64,000 nt of DNA from Asticcacaulis biprosthecium C19 (GTDB lineage Bacteria; Pseudomonadota; Alphaproteobacteria; Caulobacterales; Caulobacteraceae). A model generated the notes under the pieces. It saw only the letters and a program-made list of their open reading frames with translations. It had not been told where the DNA came from and made no database searches. Positions within the stretch are counted from its first letter, which is position 1. Every line of letters starts with the position of its first letter. A program made the position numbers and the translations under genes. This document shows, piece by piece, positions 1-13,778 of this stretch. The stretch is taken from NCBI RefSeq assembly GCF_000204015.1, contig NZ_GL883077.1:1104457-1168456 (forward strand). Direction: 5' to 3'.

Positions 1-34
1 GTCAGTTCGCCGTTATGGCTGGAGATGTACTGAG

Positions 35-1462
35 ATGATCCCCGTCAAAGGTTTTGAAGGCAAGCGTGTCGCCATTTTCGGCCTGGGCCGGTCTGGCCTG
101 TCGGCGGCGCGGGCGCTGAAAGCCGGCGGCGCCGAGCCGGTACTGTGGGACGACAAGGTCGCTTCGACGGCGGCCGCCATGAAGGAAGGCTTCACGGTCG
201 AGGACCTGAAAAAGGCCGACTGGGCGGAGTTCGACGCCCTGATGCTGTCACCGGGCGTTCCTTTGACTCATCCGGAGCCGCACTGGACCGTCAAGGCTGC
301 CAAGGCTGCCGGCGTTCAGGTACTGGGTGATATCGAGCTGTTCGCCCGCACCCTGGCGCGGTTTCCGGCGCGCAACCGTCCCAAGACAGTGGCCATTACC
401 GGCACCAACGGCAAGTCGACCACGACGGCGCTTATTGGCCATATCCTGAAGTCGGCGGGCAAGAACGTCCATGTCGGCGGCAATATCGGCATCGGCGTCC
501 TGGACCTGGATGAGATGCAGCCCGGCGCCGTCTATGTCATCGAGACCTCGTCCTACCAACTGGATCTGTCGCTGACCTTCAAGCCCGATGTGTCGATCCT
601 GATGAACCTCTCGCCGGATCACCTGGACCGGCACGGTGGCATGGACGGCTACATCGCCGCCAAGAAGCGCATCTTCATGAACCAGGAGAAGGGCCAAACC
701 GCCGTCATCGGCGCCGATGACGACTACACGGCCGACCTTATTTCGCAGATGCGCGTCAGCCATCCGGTCAAGCTGGTCGCCATCTCGTCGCGCCGCGTCG
801 TCGGCGACGGGGTCTATGCGCTGAACGGCGAACTCTACGACGCTAGCGGTGAGCGGGCGCGGCATATCATCGACTTGAAGACGGTGCGAACCCTGACCGG
901 CCGCCACAACTGGCAGAACGGGGCGGCGGCCTTTGCGGCGTGCAAGGCGCTGGGGCTGACCAACGAACAGATCGCTGTCGGCATGCGCTCCTTCCCGGGC
1001 CTGGCTCACCGCATGCAGGAGATCGGCCGCATCGGCAAGGTGCGCTTCATCAACGATTCCAAGGCGACCAATGCCGATGCCGCGCGTCAGGCGATGTCGA
1101 GCTTCGACAAATTCTTCTGGATCGCCGGCGGCAAGGCCAAGGCCGGCGGCATCGATGAACTGCGCGACCTGTACCCGCGCATCAAGCACGCCTTCCTGAT
1201 CGGCGAGGCGGCGGAACTGTTCGAAAAGACCATAGGCAAGGCAGCACCCTGCACCCAGTCGCGGCTGCTATTCACCGCCACTGCCCAAGCCTATGCTGAG
1301 GCGGAAAAGTCCGGCAAGGAAGAGATCGTGCTGTTCTCTCCGGCCTGCGCCAGCTTCGACCAGTTCACGGATTTCGAGGCCCGCGGTGATGCTTTCCGTG
1401 ATGCGGTCAATGAGATCGCCAAGTCGGTGGCGGTTGCTGGCGTACAGGATATTGGGGCTTAA
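35..1462 (+). CDS. murD: UDP-N-acetylmuramoyl-L-alanine--D-glutamate ligase MurD
   Basis: Cytoplasmic Mur ligase that adds D-glutamate to UDP-MurNAc-L-Ala in peptidoglycan precursor synthesis. The 475-residue product has an N-terminal Rossmann-like segment (VAIFGLGRSGLSAA, near residue 12), the ATP-binding loop ITGTNGKSTTT near residue 128, NLSPDHLDRHG near 190 and a C-terminal FSPACASFDQF motif, all typical of MurD. Length is normal for alphaproteobacteria. The ATG follows GGAG about 10 bases upstream. A TGA at 31-33 ends a frame entering from the left edge, possibly the preceding dcw gene, but too little of it is visible to name. ftsW and murG follow on the same strand, as in most dcw clusters. 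Confidence 0.97.
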   Translation: MIPVKGFEGKRVAIFGLGRSGLSAARALKAGGAEPVLWDDKVASTAAAMKEGFTVEDLKKADWAEFDALMLSPGVPLTHPEPHWTVKAAKAAGVQVLGDIELFARTLARFPARNRPKTVAITGTNGKSTTTALIGHILKSAGKNVHVGGNIGIGVLDLDEMQPGAVYVIETSSYQLDLSLTFKPDVSILMNLSPDHLDRHGGMDGYIAAKKRIFMNQEKGQTAVIGADDDYTADLISQMRVSHPVKLVAISSRRVVGDGVYALNGELYDASGERARHIIDLKTVRTLTGRHNWQNGAAAFAACKALGLTNEQIAVGMRSFPGLAHRMQEIGRIGKVRFINDSKATNADAARQAMSSFDKFFWIAGGKAKAGGIDELRDLYPRIKHAFLIGEAAELFEKTIGKAAPCTQSRLLFTATAQAYAEAEKSGKEEIVLFSPACASFDQFTDFEARGDAFRDAVNEIAKSVAVAGVQDIGA

Positions 1463-1467
1463 GTCGT

Positions 1468-1545
1468 CTTCGCGCCTTCGCGTCTTCGCGTGAAACCTTC
1501 GAACTCAGATAGGGACGTCTCACACGAAGACGCGAAGGCGCGAAG
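1468..1545. repeat. REP-like imperfect palindrome between murD and ftsW
   Basis: The arms 1468-1492 and 1523-1545 are inverted copies of a CTTCGCGCCTTCGCGTCTTCG unit and differ only by an extra CG in the left arm. The transcript would fold into a stem of about 21 pairs with a 30-base loop. It starts six bases after the murD stop. It could act as a terminator or RNA-stability element, or be a dispersed REP-type repeat; sequence alone cannot separate these. Confidence 0.6.
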
Positions 1546-1718
1546 ATTTTATGAGGGACTCTCAGGTTAAGTCCGACTTTAGGCAGAATACCCCGCTTGG
1601 CAGGGACGTCCGGATGGCGGGTTGCATTTCCGTTACCGAGGCGCCGCCTGGTTAATCCGATATTAACCGTGATGGGTTGAATCCTGACCCTTGGCTGTTT
1701 GCGTATTCAGGTTGCGTT

Positions 1719-2876
1719 ATGACCCAGGCCTATGCCCACCCTTTTACCCGGACAGACCGATCGCCGATCGCCATGTGGTGGTGGACCTTGGACCGCGTCA
1801 CCCTGGCGCTCGTCCTGATCCTGCTGATGCTGGGCTTCTTCTTCTCGTTTTCGTCGAGCCCTGTCGCAGCTCCGCATACCGATCCGTATGACGCCTTCTA
1901 TTACACCAAGCGCCACTTCGTCTTTGCCATCCTGACGGCCGCCGGCATGATCATGGTGTCGATGCTGTCGCTGAAAGGCGTCAAGCGGGTCAGCGTGCTG
2001 GTCTATGCCGGGGCTATCTGCATCATGGCACTATTGCCGGTGATCGGCCACGAAGCCAAGGGCGGGACGCGCTGGCTGAACCTGGGGCCTGTCGCGTTGC
2101 AGCCGTCGGAATTTCTCAAACCGGCGCTGATCGTGCTGATCGCCTGGATGTTCTCCGAAGGTCAGAAGGGCAAGGGGGTGCCTGGTGTCACCGTCGCCTT
2201 CTTCCTCTATTCCGTCGCTATCGGCCTGCTGCTGATCCAGCCTGATGTCGGCCAATCGGTCCTGATCACCTGCGTCTTCGGCGCCTGCTTCTTCATCTCG
2301 GGCGTACCGTTTCGCTGGATTATCGGCATGGGGGCGACCGCTGCCACCGGCCTGGTCGGGCTGTTCTTCATCCAGCCGCACTTTCGCAATCGCCTGCTCG
2401 GCTTCTTCAACCCTGACGCCGACAGCGGCTATCAGGTCAATAGCGCCAAGGCGGCCATCGCCAATGGCGGCCTGTGGGGCGAGGGGCTGAACGAAGGCGT
2501 CATGAAGAAGCGCATTCCCGACCTGCATACCGACTTCATCTATTCGGTGGTGGGCGAAGAATACGGCCTGTGGCTAACCCTGATCCTGATCGGCATTTTC
2601 GGATTTTTGATCGTACGCGGCCTGCTAAAATCCATGGCCATGCAGGACCCGTTCCGCCAGATCGCGACCTCGGGCCTGTACATCATGCTGGGGACCCAGG
2701 TGCTCATCAATGTCAGCGTGAATCTGGGCCTGATCCCGCCCAAGGGCATGACTCTGCCGTTTATCTCGTACGGAGGCTCGTCGATGCTGGCCATGGGATT
2801 GACCCTGGGCTTCATCCTGGCCCTGACTCGCAAACGTCAGGAAGAGGTGCCGCAGGACGATCCGACCAAGTGGTGA
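1719..2876 (+). CDS. ftsW: Peptidoglycan glycosyltransferase FtsW
   Basis: SEDS-family integral membrane protein that polymerises lipid II at the division septum with its partner PBP. About ten hydrophobic segments are visible. The diagnostic motif TLPFISYGGSS lies near the C terminus, and KGGTRWLNLGPVALQPSEF marks the conserved periplasmic/membrane loop. From the ATG at 1719 the product is 385 residues (MTQAYAHPF...). A TTG at 1677 would add 14 residues with no clear ribosome site, so the ATG is preferred. It follows murD after a 256-base spacer holding a REP-like hairpin, so it may have its own promoter. Confidence 0.95.
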   Translation: MTQAYAHPFTRTDRSPIAMWWWTLDRVTLALVLILLMLGFFFSFSSSPVAAPHTDPYDAFYYTKRHFVFAILTAAGMIMVSMLSLKGVKRVSVLVYAGAICIMALLPVIGHEAKGGTRWLNLGPVALQPSEFLKPALIVLIAWMFSEGQKGKGVPGVTVAFFLYSVAIGLLLIQPDVGQSVLITCVFGACFFISGVPFRWIIGMGATAATGLVGLFFIQPHFRNRLLGFFNPDADSGYQVNSAKAAIANGGLWGEGLNEGVMKKRIPDLHTDFIYSVVGEEYGLWLTLILIGIFGFLIVRGLLKSMAMQDPFRQIATSGLYIMLGTQVLINVSVNLGLIPPKGMTLPFISYGGSSMLAMGLTLGFILALTRKRQEEVPQDDPTKW

Positions 2877-2927
2877 CTCCGCCGAGTTGGCGGCGTAAGA
2901 TGACGCCGTTATCCATGGGAGGGTACC

Positions 2928-3221
2928 ATGACAGCCTTCAATGCCGTTCGCTTCAAAGTCAAACTCGGTCGCGAGGACGACTTCCTCGAAGCCCATCGCG
3001 CGGCAGTCGCCGACTGGCCGGGTTTGCGCCACGCCAATATGATCAAGACCGGTGAGGGCACCTACTGTATCATTGCCGAGTGGGAGAGCCTGGAGGCCAT
3101 GGCCGTTGCCAGGCCGCAGATGATCGCCACGCTCGATTCCTTCCGCGACACCCTGGAAACCCTGGACAATGGCGGGGTTACCGACCCGGTGTCGGGCACG
3201 GTCGTTCTGGCGCTGAAATAG
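2928..3221 (+). CDS. Small antibiotic-biosynthesis-monooxygenase (ABM) fold protein
   Basis: A 97-residue protein with the ferredoxin-like ABM fold pattern: FKVKLGREDDFLEAH at the N terminus, a central IAEWESLEAM strand-helix and a C-terminal VVLALK strand. ABM proteins are usually small dimeric monooxygenases or heme/quinone-linked enzymes; no substrate can be assigned here. GGGAGG stands just upstream of the ATG. It is an unusual insertion between ftsW and murG, co-oriented and closely spaced (51 bases after ftsW), so it is probably transcribed with the dcw genes. Confidence 0.75.
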   Translation: MTAFNAVRFKVKLGREDDFLEAHRAAVADWPGLRHANMIKTGEGTYCIIAEWESLEAMAVARPQMIATLDSFRDTLETLDNGGVTDPVSGTVVLALK

Positions 3222-3290
3222 CCGCGGGAGGAATTGCGGCGCAGCGCGATTCCCGGCTACAAGGTACAACCCTTTTCGGTGAGACATACC

Positions 3291-4442
3291 TTGGCCAAAG
3301 CCCCCAAACCGCGCCGCAAGGCTTCGTCCTTTTCCGAAACGCCGCTGGCCGTGGTGGCCGCCGGCGGTACCGGCGGGCATATGTTCCCGGCCGAAGCCCT
3401 GGCGCGCGAACTGATCGCGCGCGGCTGGCAGGTGGTGCTGGCCTCGGACGCCCGCGGCGCCGCCTATGCCGACAAGTTCCCGGCGATCGAGCGCCTGTCG
3501 TTGGAAGCCGCCACCTTCAAGGCCGGTGACCCCATCGGTATGGCGCGCGCTGCCATCAAGATCGCGCTGGGCACCATGCAGGCGCGCAAGGCCTTTGCCC
3601 GGCTGAAACCCTGGGCGGTCATCGGGTTTGGCGGCTATCCGTCCTATCCGGCTCTGCTGGCAGCGCTGGGGCGCAAGGATGTCACCCTGATCCATGAACA
3701 GAATTCAGTCTTGGGCCGTTCCAACCGGCAACTGGTCAAGAAGGTTGACGCCGTCGCCTGTGCCTTCCCGGTGTTGCGCATGGCGCCGTCAGAGTTGGAA
3801 GGCAAGGTCCAGGTCGTCGGCAACCCCGTCCGTCCGGACATCCAGGCCCTGTACGACGAGCCCTATCCAGCCGTCGAGAAGACCATTCGCATCCTAGTCA
3901 CCGGCGGCTCTCAGGGGGCCAAGATTCTGTCCGAACGGGTACCCCAGGCCCTGGCGTCACTGCCGATATCGATCCGCATCAATCTTCAGCTCGAACAGCA
4001 GGCGCGCGCCGAGCAGGCCGAGGCCGCGGTGAAGATTTATCAGGATGCCGAGATTCACGCCGAAGTCTCGCCGTTCTTTTCCAACATGGCCGAACGGCTG
4101 GAGCGGGCCCATATCGTCATCGGCCGGTCCGGGGCCTCGACCGTTTGCGAACTCGCGGTGGCCGGCAAACCCGCGATTCTGATCCCGCTGAAGATAGCCG
4201 CTGACGATCACCAGACCCACAATGCCGAGGTCCTGAAAGAGGCCAAGGCCGCCGTTGTCATCCCCGAGGATGAGGCTACAGTTGAACGCCTGGCCGAGGA
4301 GATTCGGACGATGATCGAAGGCGCGGCCTTGCTGCCGATGCGCGCCAAGGCTGCCAAATCCGTGGCGCGGCCGGATGCCGCCAAGCTGCTGGCGGATCTG
4401 GTTGAGCGGACCGTGGCGAAGGTCAAGCAAGGCGCAACATAG
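3291..4442 (+). CDS. murG: UDP-GlcNAc:lipid I GlcNAc transferase MurG
   Basis: Peripheral inner-membrane GT28 glycosyltransferase that converts lipid I to lipid II. Motifs in order: AGGTGGHMFPA near the N terminus, HEQNSVLGRSNR, VTGGSQGAK and GRSGASTVCELAVAGKP, the donor-binding region. The start is uncertain. TTG at 3291 (383 residues, weak GGTGAGA upstream), GTG at 3279 and TTG at 3234 are all in frame; the strong GGGAGGA at 3226-3232 is too close to the last one to decide. The last roughly 95 codons are duplicated as a decayed copy at 5998-6292. murC, the usual next gene, is absent. Confidence 0.95.
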   Translation: MAKAPKPRRKASSFSETPLAVVAAGGTGGHMFPAEALARELIARGWQVVLASDARGAAYADKFPAIERLSLEAATFKAGDPIGMARAAIKIALGTMQARKAFARLKPWAVIGFGGYPSYPALLAALGRKDVTLIHEQNSVLGRSNRQLVKKVDAVACAFPVLRMAPSELEGKVQVVGNPVRPDIQALYDEPYPAVEKTIRILVTGGSQGAKILSERVPQALASLPISIRINLQLEQQARAEQAEAAVKIYQDAEIHAEVSPFFSNMAERLERAHIVIGRSGASTVCELAVAGKPAILIPLKIAADDHQTHNAEVLKEAKAAVVIPEDEATVERLAEEIRTMIEGAALLPMRAKAAKSVARPDAAKLLADLVERTVAKVKQGAT

Positions 4443-4491
4443 GCCTCGTGCCGAACAAAGCGGCAATCTAATTTTGGGCATGAGGCAATAG

Positions 4492-5079
4492 CTAAAAGCC
4501 GGTACTGTCCCCCTGTACGGATATCCGGTCACAAATGTCCTTGTTTCGGAATCCGTAGGCGATCATCACACTTGTCGCGTTAGTCGCATCCGAAGTGATC
4601 AGCAACGCGAGGGCTGCGACGTCATCGGGGCCATCGTTCAGCTTCCACTTCACCGTCACTTTCCGCTCTCTTCGGAATATAGATACCGCAAAACTGCTGT
4701 CTCCATTCGACAAGGTATCCGGCGGCACTTCATCTTCCGAGATGGGGGGACCGTATTTTGCGATCAATGCCGTCCTGAGCCGTTGGTAGGAGGATATGAC
4801 GGTCGTTCCGTATCCGTCATTCGGATAAAGCCTTCCGAATCCGACAAGGCTGCATACACCGGTTTCCGGTGTAAGGCCGACGACATACCGCGAGAATTCC
4901 GCGTTGGGTTGTGGCACGGTGATCGAATAGTTTTTTACCGGGCCGGAGCCATTGAACAGCTTAGCGTCCCTCAGTTGGCTGAGCGGTGTCCCCATCTCGA
5001 CGCCGAAAGCGCCGGCCATGGCTGAGCCTGCCATCAACCAAGCCGCAGCGGCCGCCATAAAAATTGTCCTGTATGTCAT
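4492..5079 (-). CDS. Secreted protein of an unrecognised family (array member 1)
   Basis: A 195-residue product with a signal peptide (TIFMAAAAAWLMAGSAMA) followed by the family's mature N terminus GAFGVEMGTPLSQL. Shared family features: a YxVxxPxPNxxF stretch, GVC(x)nGFG with the first conserved Cys, a KYGPP motif mid-protein, an FAxS...W stretch, and a final strand IAYGFRNKDIC with the second Cys, which suggests a disulfide. I know no function for this family. The ATG at 5079 is chosen because it begins the signal peptide; the frame is open further upstream. It lies downstream of the 5193-5795 paralog, probably co-transcribed, and converges on murG with a 49-base gap. Confidence 0.75.
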   Translation of the reverse strand: MTYRTIFMAAAAAWLMAGSAMAGAFGVEMGTPLSQLRDAKLFNGSGPVKNYSITVPQPNAEFSRYVVGLTPETGVCSLVGFGRLYPNDGYGTTVISSYQRLRTALIAKYGPPISEDEVPPDTLSNGDSSFAVSIFRRERKVTVKWKLNDGPDDVAALALLITSDATNATSVMIAYGFRNKDICDRISVQGDSTGF

Positions 5080-5192
5080 TGCCGCGTCTTTCGTTTGGCG
5101 CAAATCGTGAACACTAGGCAGCGCCGATGTCAAATGCAATCTCGAGTGCATATGGCCATTCAGGTCTGTCATGAAAGTTGGACAAGATGATC

Positions 5193-5795
5193 CTATAAAC
5201 CCCTATCTCGGTCGTCGGGTAGGTATTCATCCAGGCATTGACTGAAGTTTGTCATCTCATAGTTCAGGATGACGTACGTGTCCCGGCCATTTGACGATCC
5301 GGCTATCAACGCAATGCTTTCGATCCTTGATGTCGGGTCGACGCTATCCCAACCGCTCGACAAATTACGCTGGTACTTGCGCAGCGAGGCGGCAAACTGA
5401 TCACGCCCGGTGAGCGTGGCGCTATCATTAAGACCCTCAAGGGTATCCGTGGGCGGGCCGTACTTACCACTCAGGGCGGTCTTCAACATCGTGAAAATCG
5501 CACTGACCTTGGCGCCGTCCAAATCATTCAACTGCTTATGCCCAAAAGCGGTGATGACGCAGACTCCGGCTTTTTTCGTCAGTTCGACATGATATTCGGA
5601 AAAGTGTTCATTCGGTACTGGCGGAATGACACCATAGGTTTGAACGGGACCATCGCCGAGTATCGGTTCCAGCGGCGAAAGCGTGAGATCTTCGAGCCTG
5701 GTCCCCATGGCGATTCCGAACGGCCCGTCGGCGGCCCAAGACGGAACCGCGATCATCAACCCCAGTACGGTCGCCAGCCACGTCCTCTGTAACAT
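5193..5795 (-). CDS. Secreted protein of an unrecognised family (array member 2, chimeric)
   Basis: A 200-residue product with a signal peptide ending SWA and the mature start ADGPFGIAMGTRL. It carries both conserved cysteines (AGVC and NFSQC). AGGTGGA precedes the ATG at 5795. The N terminus and promoter match the first domain of the 384-residue paralog at 7528-8682. The body (NDLDGAKVS, QFAASL, GRDT) matches that paralog's second domain better. The gene therefore looks like a fusion of domain 1's head to domain 2's body. It faces a duplicated promoter block shared with the AI-2E transporter gene. Function unknown. Confidence 0.75.
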   Translation of the reverse strand: MLQRTWLATVLGLMIAVPSWAADGPFGIAMGTRLEDLTLSPLEPILGDGPVQTYGVIPPVPNEHFSEYHVELTKKAGVCVITAFGHKQLNDLDGAKVSAIFTMLKTALSGKYGPPTDTLEGLNDSATLTGRDQFAASLRKYQRNLSSGWDSVDPTSRIESIALIAGSSNGRDTYVILNYEMTNFSQCLDEYLPDDRDRGL

Positions 5796-5864
5796 GTTCG
5801 TCCACCTTTGTACTTGTGGACAAATCAAGAACATGGCGATGAAGCTTTGTCAACCTCATCCTCG

Positions 5865-5990
5865 GGTTGAATGTCACTTACGGCTTGCAAGTTTAGCCGC
5901 TCTTGGGAGTAGTGATGCCGGTATCGGGTCGGGAACAGGTGGAAAAGGCATGACACGTGACGGTCTGACACGCGGATTTATGCAAAGGGT
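5865..5990. repeat. Duplicated promoter block, copy A
   Basis: These 126 bases align without gaps to 8752-8877 with about six differences by eye. The block contains the region between a secreted-array gene (minus strand) and the AI-2E start (plus strand), including the AAAAGG ribosome site and the first 13-14 codons. Here those codons lead into a dead fusion instead of a transporter. The block may still drive the 5193-5795 gene on the minus strand. Confidence 0.85.
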
Positions 5991-6006
5991 GGCCTCGTCA
6001 TTCTGG
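5950..6006 (+). pseudogene. Truncated 5' end of AI-2E transporter gene
   Basis: The ATG at 5950 begins MTRDGLTRGFMQRV, nearly identical to the first codons of the intact transporter at 8837. After about 18 codons the sequence changes to the 3' part of murG, and the frame stops at 6033. It is the left half of a duplication junction. Confidence 0.8.
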
Positions 6007-6292
6007 CCGTCGCCGGCAAGCCCTCGATCCTGATCCCTCTGAAGATCGCCGCCGATGATCGTAAGAACCACAATGCCGAGGTGCGAAGGAAGCCAAGGCC
6101 GCGGTTGTCCTCCCCGAAGATGAAGCCACGGTCGAACGCCTAACTAAAGAAATCCGCACGATGATCGAAGGCGCGGCCTTTCTGCCCATGTGGTCCAAGG
6201 CTGCAAAGTCGATCGCCCTGCCTGAAGCCGCCAAACTGCTGGCCGACCTGATCGAGCGGAGGGTGGCCAAGGTCAGGCAGGGTGTGAAGTAA
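5998..6292 (+). pseudogene. Decayed duplicate of the murG 3' end
   Basis: In two frames it encodes LAVAGKPSILIPLKIAADD...NHNAEV and then KEAKAAVVLPEDEATVERL...TMIEGAAFLPM...AKLLADLIERRVAKVRQGVK, matching the last roughly 95 residues of MurG (4155-4442) with scattered substitutions. A small deletion near 6082-6090 shifts the frame, and there is no N-terminal two-thirds. It cannot make a functional enzyme. It ends 16 bases before the convergent stop of the next array gene, just as murG itself ends 49 bases before array member 1. Confidence 0.85.
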
Positions 6293-6308
6293 TGGCTCAG
6301 CCCGCGTG

Positions 6309-6866
6309 CTACCCGGGCATGCATCCTTCCGAGTTCTTGAAATGATAAGAGATGAAAAGCGTCGTCGATGTTGCGTCGTCGGCGTCGGCGGACAGCATGA
6401 TTCGACTGAGATCGCCCGGTGAGTCCGGTTCGAAACGCCAGAATACCGCGATCTTTTTCTCATCCCTGTAAAGTTGACCGGCAAAATCCTTGGAACCGGG
6501 CCGGTGGTCTTTCAGATCGGAGGTCAAAGGGGTGCCTTTGCCGTACTTTTTCGCAAGACCTGTGGCAATTGTGTAGGCGGAGGAGACCACCTTCTGCCCA
6601 TCGGCTTCGTCCTGATTGGCATCACTGAAGGCTATCACACCGCAGGCGCCCGCCGTATCGTCGACAAGGACAAAGTAATATTGGAATTCCGGATTGATAA
6701 TCGGAGGTTCCACGCGATAGGTCGTCCTCTTTCCCTCTCTTTCCCACGTCTTGATAACCTTCAGGTCCTTCGCCTTGTCGCCCATGTCGATGCCGAAGGC
6801 GCCGGCCATGGCCGTGGTTGAAAACGACCCGGCGATCAGCAGAGCAGTGTTAATTGTCCGGAACAT
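6309..6866 (-). CDS. Secreted protein of an unrecognised family (array member 3)
   Basis: A 185-residue product with a signal peptide (MFRTINTALLIAGSF...TAMA) and the family start GAFGIDMGDKAKDL. The two conserved cysteines are present (AGAC, SEGC), as are the KKYGKG and FAGQL stretches. It is the most divergent member, for example with extra charged residues after the MG motif. The ATG at 6866 begins a good signal peptide and follows AGGCGGA; an in-frame ATG at 6893 is possible. It lies 29 bases after array member 4, so the two are probably in one transcript with member 5. Function unknown. Confidence 0.75.
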   Translation of the reverse strand: MFRTINTALLIAGSFSTTAMAGAFGIDMGDKAKDLKVIKTWEREGKRTTYRVEPPIINPEFQYYFVLVDDTAGACGVIAFSDANQDEADGQKVVSSAYTIATGLAKKYGKGTPLTSDLKDHRPGSKDFAGQLYRDEKKIAVFWRFEPDSPGDLSRIMLSADADDATSTTLFISYHFKNSEGCMPG

Positions 6867-6895
6867 ATTTGTCCGCCTACCCGTGGGTGTCATTT

Positions 6896-7465
6896 TCAAA
6901 GCCCGGCTCCCTCGGCTTCGGCCTCTAGGTCGGCACAGGCGTCGTCGTTGGTAAAGGCATACGCAATCATCAGCGCTGTGGTCGACGAATCCGGCGCTGT
7001 CGCCATAAGATGGATAGCTCTCACATCGTCGGCTTTCCCGCCGTTTGGAATCCATCCCGAAGTCAGGTTGCTTTCGTCGGTATGGAGTGACGTCGCGAAA
7101 TTGCGCGTAGCGGGCCTTTGGTTCTGTTGCGCCGGCTGGCCGTATTTTCGGACGAGATCGGCTTTGACTCGACTGTAAACGGCCTTGATCTGCGCACCAC
7201 TTTGGTCGTTCGGGTAGTTTCGGCTGACGGCGTAGATCCGGCAGACTCCCGTCCGGGGCGACAGGTCCACCGTGTAAATGCCGAAATCCGGATTCGGCGC
7301 AGGAACCCGTATATCGTAGGATTTGACCGGGCTAAGGTCGTCGAAAACCCCGACGACCTTCAGGTCAACAAGCGGTGTCCCCATTTCGATACCGAACGCA
7401 CCGGCCGTGGCCGTGTTTGAAACGGACCCGACGATCAGGAGGGCAGAGGCAAACGTCCTGAACAC
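6896..7465 (-). CDS. Secreted protein of an unrecognised family (array member 4)
   Basis: A 189-residue product starting at GTG 7465, which follows GGAGAAAT at good spacing. The signal peptide (FRTFASALLIVGSV...ATA) closely resembles that of member 3. Mature protein: GAFGIEMGTPLVDL, the YDIRVPAPNPDF stretch, TGVC, RKYGQP, FATSL and a final AYAFTNDDAC. In body sequence it is close to member 1 (GAFG-type), so members 1 and 4 are likely equivalent genes of the two duplicated units. It lies 62 bases downstream of member 5. Function unknown. Confidence 0.75.
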   Translation of the reverse strand: MFRTFASALLIVGSVSNTATAGAFGIEMGTPLVDLKVVGVFDDLSPVKSYDIRVPAPNPDFGIYTVDLSPRTGVCRIYAVSRNYPNDQSGAQIKAVYSRVKADLVRKYGQPAQQNQRPATRNFATSLHTDESNLTSGWIPNGGKADDVRAIHLMATAPDSSTTALMIAYAFTNDDACADLEAEAEGAGL

Positions 7466-7527
7466 ATATTTCTCCGGGTGGGGGATGTCACTTTCTAAGC
7501 CTGCTCCAACGGACGGGCGCGCTGTCG

Positions 7528-8682
7528 TCACAACCCGGAGGCATCCGATCCGCTGGCTTTCCCGCCTTTGCACTGGTTGTAATTTTTGAAGTCGTACACC
7601 AGATTGACATGTGTATCGCGCCCGTCCGGCGAGGTGGCATACAGCCAGATTTGCGCATATTGGGAGGCAGCGTCGGAGAATGTCCAGGTGCTCGAAAGCT
7701 CGCGCTGATCCTTTTCGAGAGATGCGGCGAACTGATTTCGAGCGGTGAGGCTGGCATAGGATTCCAAACCTTCCTCGATCTCCGAAGGCGAGCCATATTT
7801 CTTGGTAAGGGCTGACTTTAATGCAAAGTACACGGTGCTGACTTTGGCGCCATCAAGATCGTTCACCTGCTTGTTCCCAAATCCGACCACCTGGCAGGCG
7901 CCGGTCTGTTGCGTCAGCTTGACAATATAATCCTCAAATTGGGCGTTGGGTGTCGGCACGGCGACGGCATAGGCATCCAAGCCGTCGACTCTTGTGATAG
8001 GTTCTTCGAAGCGAAGCTCCAGATCTTTCAGCTTCGTTCCCATGCCTATACCGAACGCGCCGTCTCCGGCCGGGACCGGCGCCGCTTGATTATTGTGACC
8101 GACGACCGTCTTGCCGGCCTCGCACTGATCGTTATTTTCAAACTCATAGCTAAGAAACACCTTTGTGTTGCGGCTATCGGGGGAACTCGCGAACAGAAAG
8201 ATTTCCTTTACCTGGGCTGCCTGGCCGGTGAGCTCCCACTTCGCCGAGAGGGTACGTTCATGGCTGTATAGCGATTCAGCAAATTGCTGGCGTTGGGTCA
8301 GCCGGGAGGAAGACTCAAGTTCATCGACAACCGAGGCGGCCGGCCCATAAGTCTGAGTCACTCCCGACTTTACATTCTCGAACATAGCTCGGACCTTTTT
8401 TCCGTCCGGGTCATCAGCCAGTATCTGGCCGATGGCCGTTAGCTCGCACACGCCGTCCTTTGGAGTGAGATCAACGAGATAGCCTTCAAATAAATAATAA
8501 GGTTTGGGCGGTATCACGGCGTAAACTTGTACCGTCCCTGAGGACGAAATCGGAGCATCATGTTCGAGCTTCAGTGTCTGCAATCGGCTACCCATGCCGA
8601 TGCCAAAAGGACCGTCCGCCGCCCACGACGCCGTTGCCACAAACGTGGCCAAAAATACCGCCAAACCTGCTTTCTGCAACAT
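7528..8682 (-). CDS. Two-domain secreted protein of an unrecognised family (array member 5)
   Basis: A 384-residue product with a signal peptide ending SWA and two copies of the family domain. Domain 1 (ADGPFGIGMGSRL..., to about residue 185) and domain 2 (GDGAFGIGMGTKL..., about 200-370) are joined by a short linker rich in A, P and G. Each has the KYG/TYG and QFA(A/E)SL stretches and a final NxxQC. The ATG at 8682 follows AGGGTGG. It heads a likely operon with members 4 and 3 and is divergent from the AI-2E transporter (154 bases apart). The mature domains share about 40 percent identity with the single-domain paralogs by eye. Confidence 0.75.
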   Translation of the reverse strand: MLQKAGLAVFLATFVATASWAADGPFGIGMGSRLQTLKLEHDAPISSSGTVQVYAVIPPKPYYLFEGYLVDLTPKDGVCELTAIGQILADDPDGKKVRAMFENVKSGVTQTYGPAASVVDELESSSRLTQRQQFAESLYSHERTLSAKWELTGQAAQVKEIFLFASSPDSRNTKVFLSYEFENNDQCEAGKTVVGHNNQAAPVPAGDGAFGIGMGTKLKDLELRFEEPITRVDGLDAYAVAVPTPNAQFEDYIVKLTQQTGACQVVGFGNKQVNDLDGAKVSTVYFALKSALTKKYGSPSEIEEGLESYASLTARNQFAASLEKDQRELSSTWTFSDAASQYAQIWLYATSPDGRDTHVNLVYDFKNYNQCKGGKASGSDASGL

Positions 8683-8751
8683 CTTCATCCACCCTGCCTT
8701 CTGTGGACAAAGCAAGAACACGAAGGGTGCGTCTTGTCAACTACATCTTCG

Positions 8752-8877
8752 GGTTGAATGTTACTTACGGCTTGCAAGTTTAGCCGCTCTGGGGAGTAGT
8801 GATGCTGGCATCGAGTCGGGAACAGGTGGAAAAGGCATGACAAGTGACGGTCTGACACGCGGATTTATGCAAAGGGT
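8752..8877. repeat. Duplicated promoter block, copy B (parental position)
   Basis: This is the counterpart of 5865-5990. Here it joins the divergent promoter of array member 5 to an intact AI-2E transporter start at 8837, so this is the functional parent arrangement on the plus strand. Confidence 0.85.
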
Positions 8878-9916
8878 CGGTTTCGTCGTCCTGGCGGTGG
8901 CGGCGACCCTGCTGGCCTACAACCTCATGAATCTATGGATCCTCATCTTCGGTGCCATCGTGATCGCCGTCGTATTGCGCGGCATTGCCGAGCCTCTGAT
9001 GAAGGTCTGCAAGCTTAATGCGCCCCTGGCCGTGCTGGCCGCGGTGCTGCTGGTCGTAGGTGTTGTCGCGACGACCTTCTACCTGTTCGGCCGCGACATC
9101 GTCGCCCAGGTCCAGATCCTGTCGAAGCAATTGCCCGTCGCCTGGGCGGAGTTGCAGACCCGTCTTGAGGCGGCCGGTCTGAGCGACGAGGTTCAGGCCC
9201 AGATCGATGCGGCGGGCCAGCAGGCCGGCGGCGTCGCCTCCAAGATTCCGCAACTGGCCGGCGGGCTGCTGTCGGGTGTGGCCAATTTTCTGGTCGCCCT
9301 GATCGCCGGCATCCTGTTGGCTATCCATCCGGGCCAGTACCGCGACGGCATCGTCTTCCTCTTCCCAGACAGCTATAAGGCGCGTGTCAAGGACTCGCTC
9401 AATGTCGCTGGCAAGGCGCTGCAGCTGTGGTTCCTGGGCCAGTTCGTTTCGATGATCGTGGTCGGGGTGATGACCGGTGTCGGACTGTGGGTCATGGGCG
9501 TGCCCTCGGCCCTGGCCCTGGGCATGATGTCCGGTCTGGCCCAGTTCGTCCCCATCGTCGGTCCGGTGATTTCGGCCGGCCCTGGCCTGCTGTTGGCCGG
9601 TGCAGCCGGGCTGGACAAGTTCCTCTATGCCTTGGTCCTGTATGTCGGCGTGTCGCAACTTGAAGCCAACCTGATCACCCCGGCGGTGCAGAACCGGATA
9701 TCGTCGGTGCCCATGGTCCTGACGCTGTTCGCTGTCGTCGGTTTCGCCGGGCTTTTGGGTCCGGTTGGCGTCTTGTACGCGATGCCGCTGACGGTCGTGC
9801 TTTATACGCTGGTGATGCGCTTCTACAAAGGCGAAGACGTCAGCAAGAAAGGCGACAAGCCGGAAGCCGCGGCCGAAACGCCGACGAAAAAGCCACGCCG
9901 GCGCGCCGCTATCTGA
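8837..9916 (+). CDS. AI-2E family transporter (PerM/TqsA-like membrane protein)
   Basis: A 359-residue integral membrane protein with about eight hydrophobic segments. Features typical of the AI-2E exporter superfamily: ILIFGAIVIAVVLRGIAEPL near the N terminus, a long soluble segment with amphipathic helices (about residues 90-150), and the C-terminal LAQFVPIVGPVISAGPG and NLITPAVQNR motifs. The substrate cannot be inferred; members move autoinducer-2, ions or unknown solutes. The ATG at 8837 follows AAAAGG; the open frame continues upstream but runs through the duplicated promoter. A lysine-rich tail ends the protein. Confidence 0.88.
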   Translation: MTSDGLTRGFMQRVGFVVLAVAATLLAYNLMNLWILIFGAIVIAVVLRGIAEPLMKVCKLNAPLAVLAAVLLVVGVVATTFYLFGRDIVAQVQILSKQLPVAWAELQTRLEAAGLSDEVQAQIDAAGQQAGGVASKIPQLAGGLLSGVANFLVALIAGILLAIHPGQYRDGIVFLFPDSYKARVKDSLNVAGKALQLWFLGQFVSMIVVGVMTGVGLWVMGVPSALALGMMSGLAQFVPIVGPVISAGPGLLLAGAAGLDKFLYALVLYVGVSQLEANLITPAVQNRISSVPMVLTLFAVVGFAGLLGPVGVLYAMPLTVVLYTLVMRFYKGEDVSKKGDKPEAAAETPTKKPRRRAAI

Positions 9917-9953
9917 GGTTCACGCACAATTATCTTTCCCTTCGCGTCAAGTT

Positions 9954-9972
9954 TTGTTAGGCTCGCCTTAAC
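9954..9972. promoter_or_regulatory. Near-palindrome upstream of acyl-CoA ligase
   Basis: TTGTTAGGC and GCCTTAACAA form an inverted repeat with one bulged base, 29 bases before the GTG start. It could be an operator for a fatty-acid regulator or part of a terminator for the preceding gene. Confidence 0.35.
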
Positions 9973-10000
9973 AAAGAAAAACTGACTAAAGGGAAACGCC

Positions 10001-11635
10001 GTGCTCGGATTGATGATGGATGGGCCTCTGCTCATTTCCGCTGTTCTCGACTATGCCGCCAAATACCATGCCTCCAAGGAAATCGTTTCCCGCAACGAGG
10101 ATTCGAGCCTGCACCGGTACACCTATGCCGACGCCGGGCGGCGGGCGGCGAAGCTGGCGCATGCCCTGACCAAGCTGGGCCTGCAGCCCGGCGACCGTAT
10201 CGCTACCCTGGCCTGGAACAATTACCGCCATTTCGAGCTCTATTACGGAGCACCAGGCGCCGGCTTCGTTTGCCATACAGTGAATCCGCGCCTGTTCCGC
10301 GAGCAGATCGAGTTCATCATCAACGATGCGAAGGATCAGTATATCTTCACCGATCCTTGTTTTGCACCGCTGGTCGAGGCGATGGTGATCAACCTGCCCT
10401 CGGTCAAGGGCGTGGTGGTGATGGGCAGCCGTGAGCAGATGCCGGGCAATATCCTGCACCGTGCCCTGTGTTACGAAGACCTGATCGCCAACGAACCCGA
10501 TCATTTCGACTGGCCGCAGTTCGACGAACGGACGGCGGCGGGGCTTTGCTATACCTCGGGCACAACCGGCCACCCCAAGGGCGTCCTCTACTCGCACCGT
10601 TCGACCGTGCTGCATGCCATGGGTCTCAACCAGCCCGGCCTGTTTGGCTTCACGCCGGACGAAACCGTCATGCCGGTCGTGCCGATGTTCCACGTCAATG
10701 CTTGGGGCGTGCCCTATTCCGCCGCCCTCGCCGGGGCCCGCCTGGTCATGCCGGGACCGCGGCTGGATGGTCCGGGTCTGCTGGAAATTATTCGTGCTGA
10801 GGGTGTGACAGTCTCGGCCGGGGTGCCGACCATCTGGATGAACCTGCTCAATCACTGCGATCAGGTCGGCCAGTCGGTAGCGCCCTTGCGCCGCGTGGTC
10901 ATCGGTGGCGCCGCCTGTCCGCAGATCCTGATCGAACGTTTTGCGGCACATAAGGCCCTGGCCGTTCACGCCTGGGGCATGACGGAGACCTCGCCTCTGG
11001 GTTCGGTCAGCGTGCTGTCGTCAAACCACGAGGATTTGAGCAGCGATGACAAGATGAAGCTGCTGCTGAAGCAGGGGCGGGCCCCCTTCGGCATCGAGAT
11101 GCGCATCACGGGACCTGACGGCAAGGCTTTGCCGTGGGATGGCGTGGCGCGTGGCGAGTTGGAGGTCCGCGGGCCGTGGATCGTTTCGGGCTACTACAAC
11201 AATGCTGAAACGGACCAGTTCACGACGGACGGCTGGTTCCGTACCGGGGATATCGCGACCATCGACGGCGAAGGGTTTATGAACATTGTCGACCGATCGA
11301 AGGACGTCATCAAGACCGGTGGCGAGTGGATCAGTTCGATCGAGCTTGAGAATCTGGCCATGCAGCACCCCAGTGTCCGCGAAGCGGCGGTGATTGCGCG
11401 TATGGACTCCAAATGGAGCGAACGGCCGCGCTTTATCCTGGCCTTACATCCGGGCAAGACGATCACAGGGGCGGAGTTGCGTAAGGTAATCGAGCCGCAT
11501 GTGGCGCGGTGGTGGATCCCGGAGGACTATATTGTGGTCGACGAGATTCCGCATACGGCGACGGGCAAGATCCTGAAGACGAAACTGCGCGAACTGTACG
11601 GAATGGAACACCATCCGCAGGCGCAGAAGCTTTAG
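10001..11635 (+). CDS. Fatty acyl-CoA synthetase (AMP-forming)
   Basis: Cytoplasmic ANL-superfamily ligase of 544 residues that activates a fatty acid to its CoA thioester through an acyl-adenylate. Visible motifs: the P-loop-like YTSGTTGHPKGVLYSH near residue 185, HAWGMTETSPLGS near 325, WFRTGDIATID near 412, and the C-terminal lysine context TATGKILKTKLREL. The layout resembles medium/long-chain acyl-CoA ligases of the AlkK type; chain length is not resolvable. The GTG start has AAGGGA at good spacing. It converges on the GGDEF-EAL gene across a palindromic repeat region. Confidence 0.92.
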   Translation: MLGLMMDGPLLISAVLDYAAKYHASKEIVSRNEDSSLHRYTYADAGRRAAKLAHALTKLGLQPGDRIATLAWNNYRHFELYYGAPGAGFVCHTVNPRLFREQIEFIINDAKDQYIFTDPCFAPLVEAMVINLPSVKGVVVMGSREQMPGNILHRALCYEDLIANEPDHFDWPQFDERTAAGLCYTSGTTGHPKGVLYSHRSTVLHAMGLNQPGLFGFTPDETVMPVVPMFHVNAWGVPYSAALAGARLVMPGPRLDGPGLLEIIRAEGVTVSAGVPTIWMNLLNHCDQVGQSVAPLRRVVIGGAACPQILIERFAAHKALAVHAWGMTETSPLGSVSVLSSNHEDLSSDDKMKLLLKQGRAPFGIEMRITGPDGKALPWDGVARGELEVRGPWIVSGYYNNAETDQFTTDGWFRTGDIATIDGEGFMNIVDRSKDVIKTGGEWISSIELENLAMQHPSVREAAVIARMDSKWSERPRFILALHPGKTITGAELRKVIEPHVARWWIPEDYIVVDEIPHTATGKILKTKLRELYGMEHHPQAQKL

Positions 11636-11639
11636 GCTT

Positions 11640-11823
11640 ATACCAACCCCCAAAAAGACTGACCCATCCGACCAGATGAGGTGCGGTTGGTATTGCATTT
11701 TTTTGCTCAAGCGCCGCCGCACGGGCGGCCCCTATGGGTCCTCGCATAAGCTCGGGCGGCCAAGAAGCGTTCTTTGGCGCCCTTGCCAACCCACGATGAG
11801 TCAAAATCATCGTGGGTTGGTAT
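11640..11823. repeat. 184-bp intergenic element with terminal inverted repeats
   Basis: The ends ATACCAACCC (11640-11649) and GGGTTGGTAT (11814-11823) are perfect 10-base inverted repeats. A further GTTGGTAT copy sits at 11686-11693. The right part contains a strong hairpin (separate entry). No coding frame is convincing. It may be a REP doublet or MITE-like element lying between two convergent genes. Confidence 0.55.
11786..11820. terminator. Strong hairpin between convergent genes
   Basis: CCAACCCACGATGA and TCATCGTGGGTTGG form a perfect 14-pair stem with a 7-base loop. It lacks a long T run on either side but sits between the stops of the acyl-CoA ligase and the GGDEF-EAL gene, where a bidirectional terminator is expected. 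Confidence 0.55.
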
Positions 11824-13778
11824 TACTTCCCCATCCGACGCCGCGACGGCAATTTGTGCTCGGACTCGAGGTAATGCACCACGTCCTGCTCGGGCATGGG
11901 CCGGGCGAAATAATAGCCCTGGACGTAGATGCAGCCCAACGCCTGCAAGACCTCGAGCTGTGCCGCCGTCTCGACCCCTTCCAACACGCAGGCCAGGCCC
12001 ATGTCGGCGCAAAGGGCACTCAGCGACTTGATGATCTTGTGCGACACCGGGTTGGTGGTGACGTCTGCCACGAAACTGCGGTCGACCTTGATCTTGTCCA
12101 GCGCCAGGCGATGGACATGGCTGAGCGACGAATAGCCGGTGCCGAAATCGTCCAGGGATATCCCCAAGCCCAGGGCCCGGAAGGCGATGACTGCCGCACG
12201 CGCCTGCTGGAAGTCGTAGGAGATCGAGGTCTCGGTGATTTCGAAATCGATCCGCTTGGGCGAGACCCCGCTGCGGTTGATCAGGGCGATGATCTGGATA
12301 ACGCTCTCGGCCTGAGAAATGTCGTGGGCCGACAGGTTGAACGAGATGCGCACCGTTTCCGGCCACTGCGCGGCCGCGCGCAGGGCCTTGCCCAGCAGCG
12401 CCAAAGTCAGGTCGCGAACCTGACCGGTGCGCTCGGCCACCGGGATGAAGTCGCCCGGACTGACGGCGCCGAGCGACGGACTGTTCCACCGCGCTAAAGC
12501 TTCAAAGGTCGAGGCCCGGCCGGTACGGGTATCGACAATCGGCTGGTAGACCAGCGACATCTCGGCTTCGAAATTTGCCGCCTGAAGCGCCTGTTCGATG
12601 ACGCCGTGGCTGCGGATCTGTTCTTCGTGGCGGTTTGAGAAGACGACCACGTGTCCGCGCTGGTTGCGCTTGGCGTGGTACAGGGCGTAGTCAGCTCGTT
12701 CGAATAGCGATTCCGGTGTGTCGGCCGAGTCAGGGTAGCGGGCGACGCCGATCGAAGCACCCAGCGCCGCGTGGCTGCCGCCGATGGCAAAGGGCAGGCG
12801 CACCGTCTCGATCAGGGCCGCGCCGAAGGTTTTCAGGCGTTCCTCGCTGGGGTCGTCCCCCATGATGAAGCCGAACTCATCGCCGCCCAGGCGCGCCAGG
12901 GTGACACCGTCGCGACCGGCCTTGCTGAGCCGCCGGCCGACCTCGCTCAAGACCTTGTCGCCCGTCATGTGGCCGTAGGTGTCGTTGACCGGCTTGAAGC
13001 CGTCGAGGTCTATAATGCCGACGGCGAAGCCAGCGCCGGCCGCGGTGGCCTCGCCATGGCGGCGTTCCAGTTCGGCGAAGAACCAGCGCCGGTTGGGCAG
13101 GTCGGTCAGGGCGTCAAGATTGGCGATGCGGAAGTTTTCGTCCGACAGCCGCCGGGTTTCGGCCTGGGATTCCACCAGCCTGGCGAAGTCACGCGAATAG
13201 ACCAGCAGAATCATGATCATTGCCACCGACACTAGGGCCAGGTTGACGGCGACGGCCTTAAGGCTGCCGTGGCCCTCCAGGAAGAAGAACAGGATGAACG
13301 GGCCGTTGGCAAACAGAGTGACCGACAAAGCCGCCGGCCGCAGGTGCATCAGACAGAAGACGCAACCGATCACCGTTAGCGCCATGCAGAACACCACCTG
13401 ACCGCGGGCATAGGCGTCGCCGTAGGGGTAGAGCAGCAGGCCCCAGATGGTAAAGCCGAAGGTCAGCAGCGCCGCGAGTTGCGATGTCGTGCGCATGTGC
13501 TTGATGATGTAGGCGTCGCTGAACGTCTGTTTGCGCGCCTGCCACCACCACAGGCAGCGCACACCGCACAGGGTGCACAGGGCGGTCGGGATGTAGACGG
13601 CCAGCCAGGCCGGGGCGAACTGGGTAAAGGTCCAGGCCGCCGCCAGGGAATTGGTCGTCAGGATAAAATAGAGCAGCGGGATCTGTTTGGAAAAGGCGTC
13701 GAACTGCGCCCGGACCAATGGCATATTGCCGGTCGGGAAACGGAACAGGTCGAAAAAGGCAGCGAAAAGACACTTCAA
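11823..13778 (-). CDS. Membrane GGDEF-EAL protein (cyclic di-GMP turnover)
   Basis: A 651-residue inner-membrane signalling protein. The N-terminal 190 residues hold about five to six membrane segments. They are followed by a GGDEF domain with intact RLGGDEF near residue 298 and an EAL domain with FEALARW near 424, DDFGTGYSSL, EGVET and QGYYFARPM. Both catalytic cores look intact, so synthase and phosphodiesterase activity are both possible. The RxxD inhibitory site before GGDEF reads RDGV, so product inhibition is probably lost. The start is uncertain: TTG at 13778 keeps the conserved segment FRFPTGN; ATG at 13724 would remove it. Confidence 0.9.
   Translation of the reverse strand: MKCLFAAFFDLFRFPTGNMPLVRAQFDAFSKQIPLLYFILTTNSLAAAWTFTQFAPAWLAVYIPTALCTLCGVRCLWWWQARKQTFSDAYIIKHMRTTSQLAALLTFGFTIWGLLLYPYGDAYARGQVVFCMALTVIGCVFCLMHLRPAALSVTLFANGPFILFFFLEGHGSLKAVAVNLALVSVAMIMILLVYSRDFARLVESQAETRRLSDENFRIANLDALTDLPNRRWFFAELERRHGEATAAGAGFAVGIIDLDGFKPVNDTYGHMTGDKVLSEVGRRLSKAGRDGVTLARLGGDEFGFIMGDDPSEERLKTFGAALIETVRLPFAIGGSHAALGASIGVARYPDSADTPESLFERADYALYHAKRNQRGHVVVFSNRHEEQIRSHGVIEQALQAANFEAEMSLVYQPIVDTRTGRASTFEALARWNSPSLGAVSPGDFIPVAERTGQVRDLTLALLGKALRAAAQWPETVRISFNLSAHDISQAESVIQIIALINRSGVSPKRIDFEITETSISYDFQQARAAVIAFRALGLGISLDDFGTGYSSLSHVHRLALDKIKVDRSFVADVTTNPVSHKIIKSLSALCADMGLACVLEGVETAAQLEVLQALGCIYVQGYYFARPMPEQDVVHYLESEHKLPSRRRMGK

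Follow-up and report, generated by a model that had tools for sequence, protein, structure and literature searches.

A chromosomal array of secreted domains in Asticcacaulis biprosthecium represents an uncatalogued domain family linked to mobile elements

The 64,000-nucleotide window analyzed here, from Asticcacaulis biprosthecium C19 (contig NZ_GL883077.1), contains an array of five minus-strand open reading frames (ORFs), g1 to g5, between positions 4492 and 8682 (Table 1), which code for six homologous secreted-type domains with pairwise identities of 28-48%. When one of these domains was used to search its own genome (G000, 5.41 Mb), exactly the six array domains and nothing more were recovered. 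The five besides the query had E values of 3e-20 to 3e-46, which places their homology far beyond chance and confirms the arrangement of five genes and six shared domains described in the initial annotation. A signal-peptide-like N-terminus, judged by inspection of the sequence, was found at the start of all five genes. Among the shared motifs listed earlier, the G[AP]FGI.MG start (more exactly G[AP]FG[IV].MG), the N...C motif and the final strand ([ILV].Y.[FM].N) were each present in all six domains. GVC, KYG and FAxSL proved not to be universal: the first cysteine lies in G[VA]C, the invariant YG is preceded by T rather than K in domain 1 of g5 (TYG), and FAxSL is kept in four domains, the corresponding stretches of g1 and g3 being FAVSI and FAGQL. 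Promoter and terminator scans showed no excess over shuffled sequence, and an Rfam search of window positions 1-12000 gave no match.

Searches of Pfam, NCBIfam, PADLOC and the PDB sequences gave no confident match to the array domain; low-scoring Pfam matches, such as that to DUF6301 (E value 0.009, for one protein of Asticcacaulis sp. AC460), were under the cut-off. A relative at locus L026, however, falls within the broader family PHROG 28385 (E value 1e-26), and array protein P0006 of AC460 matched that family with an E value of 4e-8, while window protein P0001 alone reached just 0.13. Alignment with hhalign of the profiles of the two groups, the window type (A7) and the PHROG 28385 type (A10), gave a probability of 99.1 and an E value of 4e-19 over 148 columns. 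On this profile evidence, the array domain shares homology with PHROG 28385, which is catalogued as a phage family but has no assigned function. The earlier statement that no named family applies was therefore borne out for Pfam, NCBIfam and PDB sequences, but the description "unrecognised" is limited by this homology. The likeness extends over nearly the whole domain and includes the predicted fold, secretion, an [AG]PFG start, a long helix ending in YG and a final Y strand. The PHROG 28385 proteins differ in starting with APFGLKW where the window domains have GPFGI.MG, in lacking conservation of the window-type cysteine pair, and in being encoded by single-copy genes, several of them for lipoproteins such as ORF21 of Erwinia phage Midgardsormr38. 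Profile searches within the Alphaproteobacteria found relatives to be patchy, occurring in 5 of 199 genomes of the family, 4 of 398 of the order and 11 of 385 of the class, with the window genome itself counted.

The structure of one domain (g2) was predicted using a 22-sequence alignment. The model had a predicted local distance difference test score (pLDDT) of 93 and a predicted template modeling score (pTM) of 0.87, and consisted of three strands, a long helix, a strand, a helix, three strands and a helix, in that order. A Foldseek comparison with viral models placed the Erwinia phage lipoprotein A0A5Q2F5G3 at the top (E value 6.7e-8, probability 1.00, template modeling score 0.69). There was no strong structural match in the PDB; the best aligned chains were PA1624, PsbP and DcrB, of alpha-beta sandwich type (Z scores 6-7, best 6.8). 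DcrB, an envelope protein annotated for bacteriophage sensitivity, aligned with a Z score of 6.4 over 96 residues, but values below 8 are weak and may reflect just a common arrangement, so that the annotation is suggestive only. The resemblance to the DcrB/PsbP/Mog1/LpqN sandwiches lies in the overall arrangement of strands and helices and has no counterpart in a sequence or profile match. Membership in the DcrB family (Pfam PF08786) was rejected, with no Pfam match and an hhalign probability of 0.1 against Escherichia coli DcrB. Neither the hidden Markov model search nor the structure-prediction search of the domain gave a confident match to a well-characterized family, the kind of match that, according to the initial annotation, would refute its reading. 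Within the alignment, Cys58 and Cys166 were both present in 20 of the 22 domains and both absent from the other two; this co-presence or co-absence in all 22 supports a putative Cys58-Cys166 disulfide.

In order to see how the array is distributed, 25 genomes of the genus were compared. The array was found in two only, the window genome and AC460 (G007). In the other 23, murG is immediately followed by the permease gene; in the nearest of these array-free genomes (G009, murG 93% identical), about 420 bp separate the two genes and contain none of the array genes. The array is therefore an accessory element inserted between murG and the permease gene. It does lie directly behind murG, as had been noted, but the genes are convergent, with murG on the plus strand. 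A small ORF between ftsW and murG (2928-3221), by eye of the antibiotic biosynthesis monooxygenase type, is also present in AC460 and G009 and was not found at the remaining loci of the genus. In a tree of the domains, all Asticcacaulis members formed one group (support 100/98), in which g2 paired with AC460 copy a and g1 with AC460 copy b, while g5 was specific to the window genome; AC460 retains just an N-terminal fragment of a g4-like gene. The tandem expansion and two-domain fusion that had been proposed are supported, and so is turnover of the array genes. For the two gene pairs shared with AC460, the ratio of nonsynonymous to synonymous substitution rates (dN/dS) was 0.20-0.21, compared with 0.03-0.08 for ftsW, murG, fadD and the permease gene. 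By this sequence measure the array genes are functional and under purifying selection, yet evolving faster than their neighbors. We infer, the direction of transfer included, that the domain entered an ancestor of the two Asticcacaulis lineages and multiplied there. The region between ftsW and murD in AC460 (L012:12336-15160) contains a GH92-like gene and the gene of a small secreted protein with an SQYGQP motif; this protein, near the end of L012, is similar to the family by eye, but its membership was unsupported by profile comparison.

The stretch between g2 and g3 (5786-6282), overlooked in the initial annotation, is not a plain spacer but a remnant in which a dead murG 3' end and a copied permease segment are fused with an overlap of about 12 bases (Table 1). 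The order across the array is accordingly permease, g5, g4, g3, murG end joined to permease start, g2, g1, murG. This fused remnant is apparently the scar of two complete arrays joined end to end. That the two halves arose by simple tandem duplication is disfavored: the domains of g2 and g5 share only 52-55% DNA identity, with more than 2.5 synonymous substitutions per site (dS), and are far more diverged than the copied flanks, which are 80-84% identical. The joining of two already different arrays therefore fits better, and the two halves probably held different genes before they were joined, as their divergence suggests.

Table 1. Coordinates of the array genes, flanking genes and remnants in the window, and of one phage relative outside it
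Feature	Position	Strand	Remarks
g1	4492..5079	-	signal peptide and one domain, 195 amino acids; nearest is AC460 copy b (57% amino acid identity)
g2	5193..5795	-	signal peptide and one domain, 200 amino acids; ortholog of AC460 copy a (82% amino acid identity); basis of the structure model
g3	6309..6866	-	signal peptide and one domain, 185 amino acids; most diverged of the copies
g4	6896..7465	-	signal peptide and one domain, 189 amino acids; GTG start
g5	7528..8682	-	signal peptide and two tandem domains, 384 amino acids; domain 1 8613-8107, domain 2 8061-7543
murG	3234..4442	+	flank, outside the system; convergent with the array
AI-2E-type permease	8840..9916 (start approximate)	+	flank, outside the system; comes after murG in the rest of the genus
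Copied AI-2E permease 5'/array-upstream segment	5786..6014		84% identical to 8673-8901
Dead copy of murG 3' end (281 bp)	6002..6282	+	80% identical to 4151-4432; reading frame broken
Klebsiella phage 2b LV-2017 lipoprotein gene, unannotated	L053:5929-6609		between KilA-N gene and tape-measure gene

The window array itself is not within a prophage; several of its relatives are, beside repressors or antisense among structural genes. Scans of viral contigs yielded two loci with the domain and then nineteen, in prophages and satellites. The family gene comes after a CI-like repressor gene at L066 and L079, adjoins an endolysin gene at L062 and L080, and lies just upstream of the tape-measure gene at L064, L067 and L076, with one ORF intervening in the last. 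In genome G436 it lies antisense between the portal and capsid genes, a site typical for a gene expressed from a prophage. Genes of the PHROG 28385 type were likewise found upstream of tape-measure genes in Erwinia phage Midgardsormr38, in Klebsiella phage 2b LV-2017 and at L058 and L059, and lipoprotein signals were present in those phage relatives of this type that were read (Erwinia, Klebsiella and IMG/VR). The lipoprotein upstream of the tape-measure gene at L059 (5001-5501) resembles a shortened PHROG 28385 domain. These positions of the phage-borne relatives are typical of morons, and the phage-type contexts suggest that the domain is spread by temperate phages and satellites.

In enterobacteria the family takes the form of lipoproteins in which helical repeats are combined with a copy of the window domain at the C-terminus. 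In the E. coli satellite lipoprotein WP_001044338.1 and its relatives (L064, L067, L075 and L076), the C-terminal approximately 180 amino acids correspond to the window domain, including the start motif and the cysteine pair, but are preceded by a lipobox, a helical-repeat stretch of about 140 amino acids and a linker; there is one copy per element, annotated just as hypothetical. The full-length E. coli lipoprotein gave a poor model, which was used for secondary structure only. A search for this lipoprotein type among finished phage records gave no match, and the evidence for it therefore comes from IMG/VR proviruses, E. coli chromosomes and plasmids. Of 5426 complete E. coli genomes, 112 carry the E. 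coli member. Its copy in E. coli 55989 sits on an element integrated at tRNA-Thr, together with integrase, antirepressor and primase-like genes, and the far end of the same element holds a PARIS pair (L081:15489-17445; AriA, E value 5e-43; AriB, 4e-22). On an Enterobacter plasmid, roughly 6 kb separate the family member from a gene of the Abi family that matches PD-T4-5. A further member (L116:5465-5995), which has neither a signal peptide nor either cysteine, is located downstream of a type III methyltransferase gene and of a DUF262-like gene matching the PADLOC models PDC-M55C and HEC-05, and is possibly a cytoplasmic defense variant. The contexts of the relatives indicate phage-bacterium conflict in the envelope.

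The explanation we favor, at somewhat less than an even chance, is that the array supplies, in six periplasmic copies, a mobile-element-associated envelope domain which protects against phages by stopping DNA injection, and which has been domesticated and diversified. An envelope function had been suggested earlier and is supported by the signal peptides of all the window genes, the lipoboxes of relatives (both from sequence inspection only) and the co-conserved cysteine pair. Each protein would be secreted to the periplasm, as the signal peptides suggest, locked by one disulfide, as the paired cysteines suggest, and folded into a compact alpha/beta sandwich, predicted with high confidence. 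In temperate phages and satellites, the domain often takes the form of a lipoprotein with a helical spacer. The domain may then bind a part of the machinery that arrives to inject the DNA, for which the tape-measure protein, as it crosses the periplasm, is the most plausible candidate, or a host protein which that machinery uses; this step is suggested by gene position and by precedent. A periplasmic injection component is proposed as the target by analogy, because the known exclusion precedents block DNA injection. Several diverged copies, gained, fused and lost, might widen the range of excluded phages. Ltp of phage TP-J34 has a lipid anchor, a spacer and repeat domains, and targets the tape measure (PMC3952083); HK97 gp15, a precedent for superinfection exclusion, is a predicted inner-membrane protein (PMC10883804); and the mEpimmI phage lipoproteins (Lpp), whose genes lie inside the structural gene cluster, exclude phages when expressed (PMC11893012). 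Like the relatives of the array domain, these three are prophage-encoded envelope proteins, but no sequence relation to them is shown, and they are single-copy phage genes whereas here there is a diversified chromosomal array. A further precedent is the nuclease SNIPE, which associates with tape-measure proteins (PMC13190303).

Several points weigh against phage exclusion. No member of the family has a known function, and exclusion is inferred from context; the resemblance to DcrB in structure is weak (Z below 8) and lacks sequence support; and a dN/dS of 0.2 reflects fast purifying, not positive, selection. Unlike the E. coli type, the Asticcacaulis proteins have neither a lipid anchor nor a helical spacer. 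Adjacency to tape-measure genes may merely mark a common site of moron insertion, prophage morons may also serve host fitness without excluding phages, and the chromosomal relatives in G028, G821, G284, G785 and G630 have no evident phage or defense neighbors. The strongest alternative, although we consider it unlikely, is an envelope protein of lysogenic conversion that serves host fitness in a way not aimed at phages, such as stress, lysozyme or predation tolerance, and that was domesticated and amplified. Relatives that are prophage-borne, secreted or lipoproteins, apparently in separate transcription units, would be expected of such a protein, as would those in ordinary chromosomal contexts, and DcrB/PsbP/LpqN-like sandwiches, which have varied envelope roles, are among the structural matches; however, members share their loci with PARIS, Abi and type III restriction genes and repeatedly adjoin tape-measure genes, and both observations argue for phage conflict.

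Immunity islands are typically tandem arrays of small secreted paralogs, and the array resembles them. Its diverged domains could thus neutralize, in the periplasm, toxins from neighboring bacteria, such as bacteriocins or effectors of the type VI secretion system (T6SS), in line with the inter-bacterial function suggested in the initial annotation; the structural matches include RhsI1 (Z 5.8) and TplEi (Z 4.1), and one plasmid relative is near a colicin gene. However, no match to the T6SS sheath protein VipA/TssB was found in the four genomes searched (G000, G007, G009 and G028), although the E. coli positive control was detected, no effector-like partner adjoins the array or the prophage copies read, and moron sites by repressor, portal/capsid and tape-measure genes are unusual for such immunity genes. 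Immunity to toxins of other bacteria is possible despite the lack of a sheath match, but we rate it as distinctly improbable, and the contexts of the relatives lead away from it. That the proteins are cell-wall or division accessories functionally tied to murG and ftsW is very improbable: the position behind murG is the only point in favor, whereas the array is missing from most of the genus and relatives elsewhere are not near cell-wall genes.

The array domain represents a real, uncatalogued domain family, clearly linked to mobile elements and found here in an unusual chromosomal array. The family is absent from Pfam, NCBIfam and PADLOC, yet its members occur in prophages, in satellites (one of which also has PARIS), in a restriction region and in a chromosomal array. 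It is conceivable, although doubtful, that a widespread and undescribed family of anti-injection envelope domains, exchanged among siphoviruses, satellites and chromosomes, became a combinatorial array in Asticcacaulis, in which each domain would exclude different phages and whole arrays would be joined by recombination in the conserved flanks. If the domain does block injection, it would add a new fold and a broad family to phage exclusion at the level of the envelope, a layer with few known mechanisms, and the array would be a natural set of diverged copies for specificity mapping.

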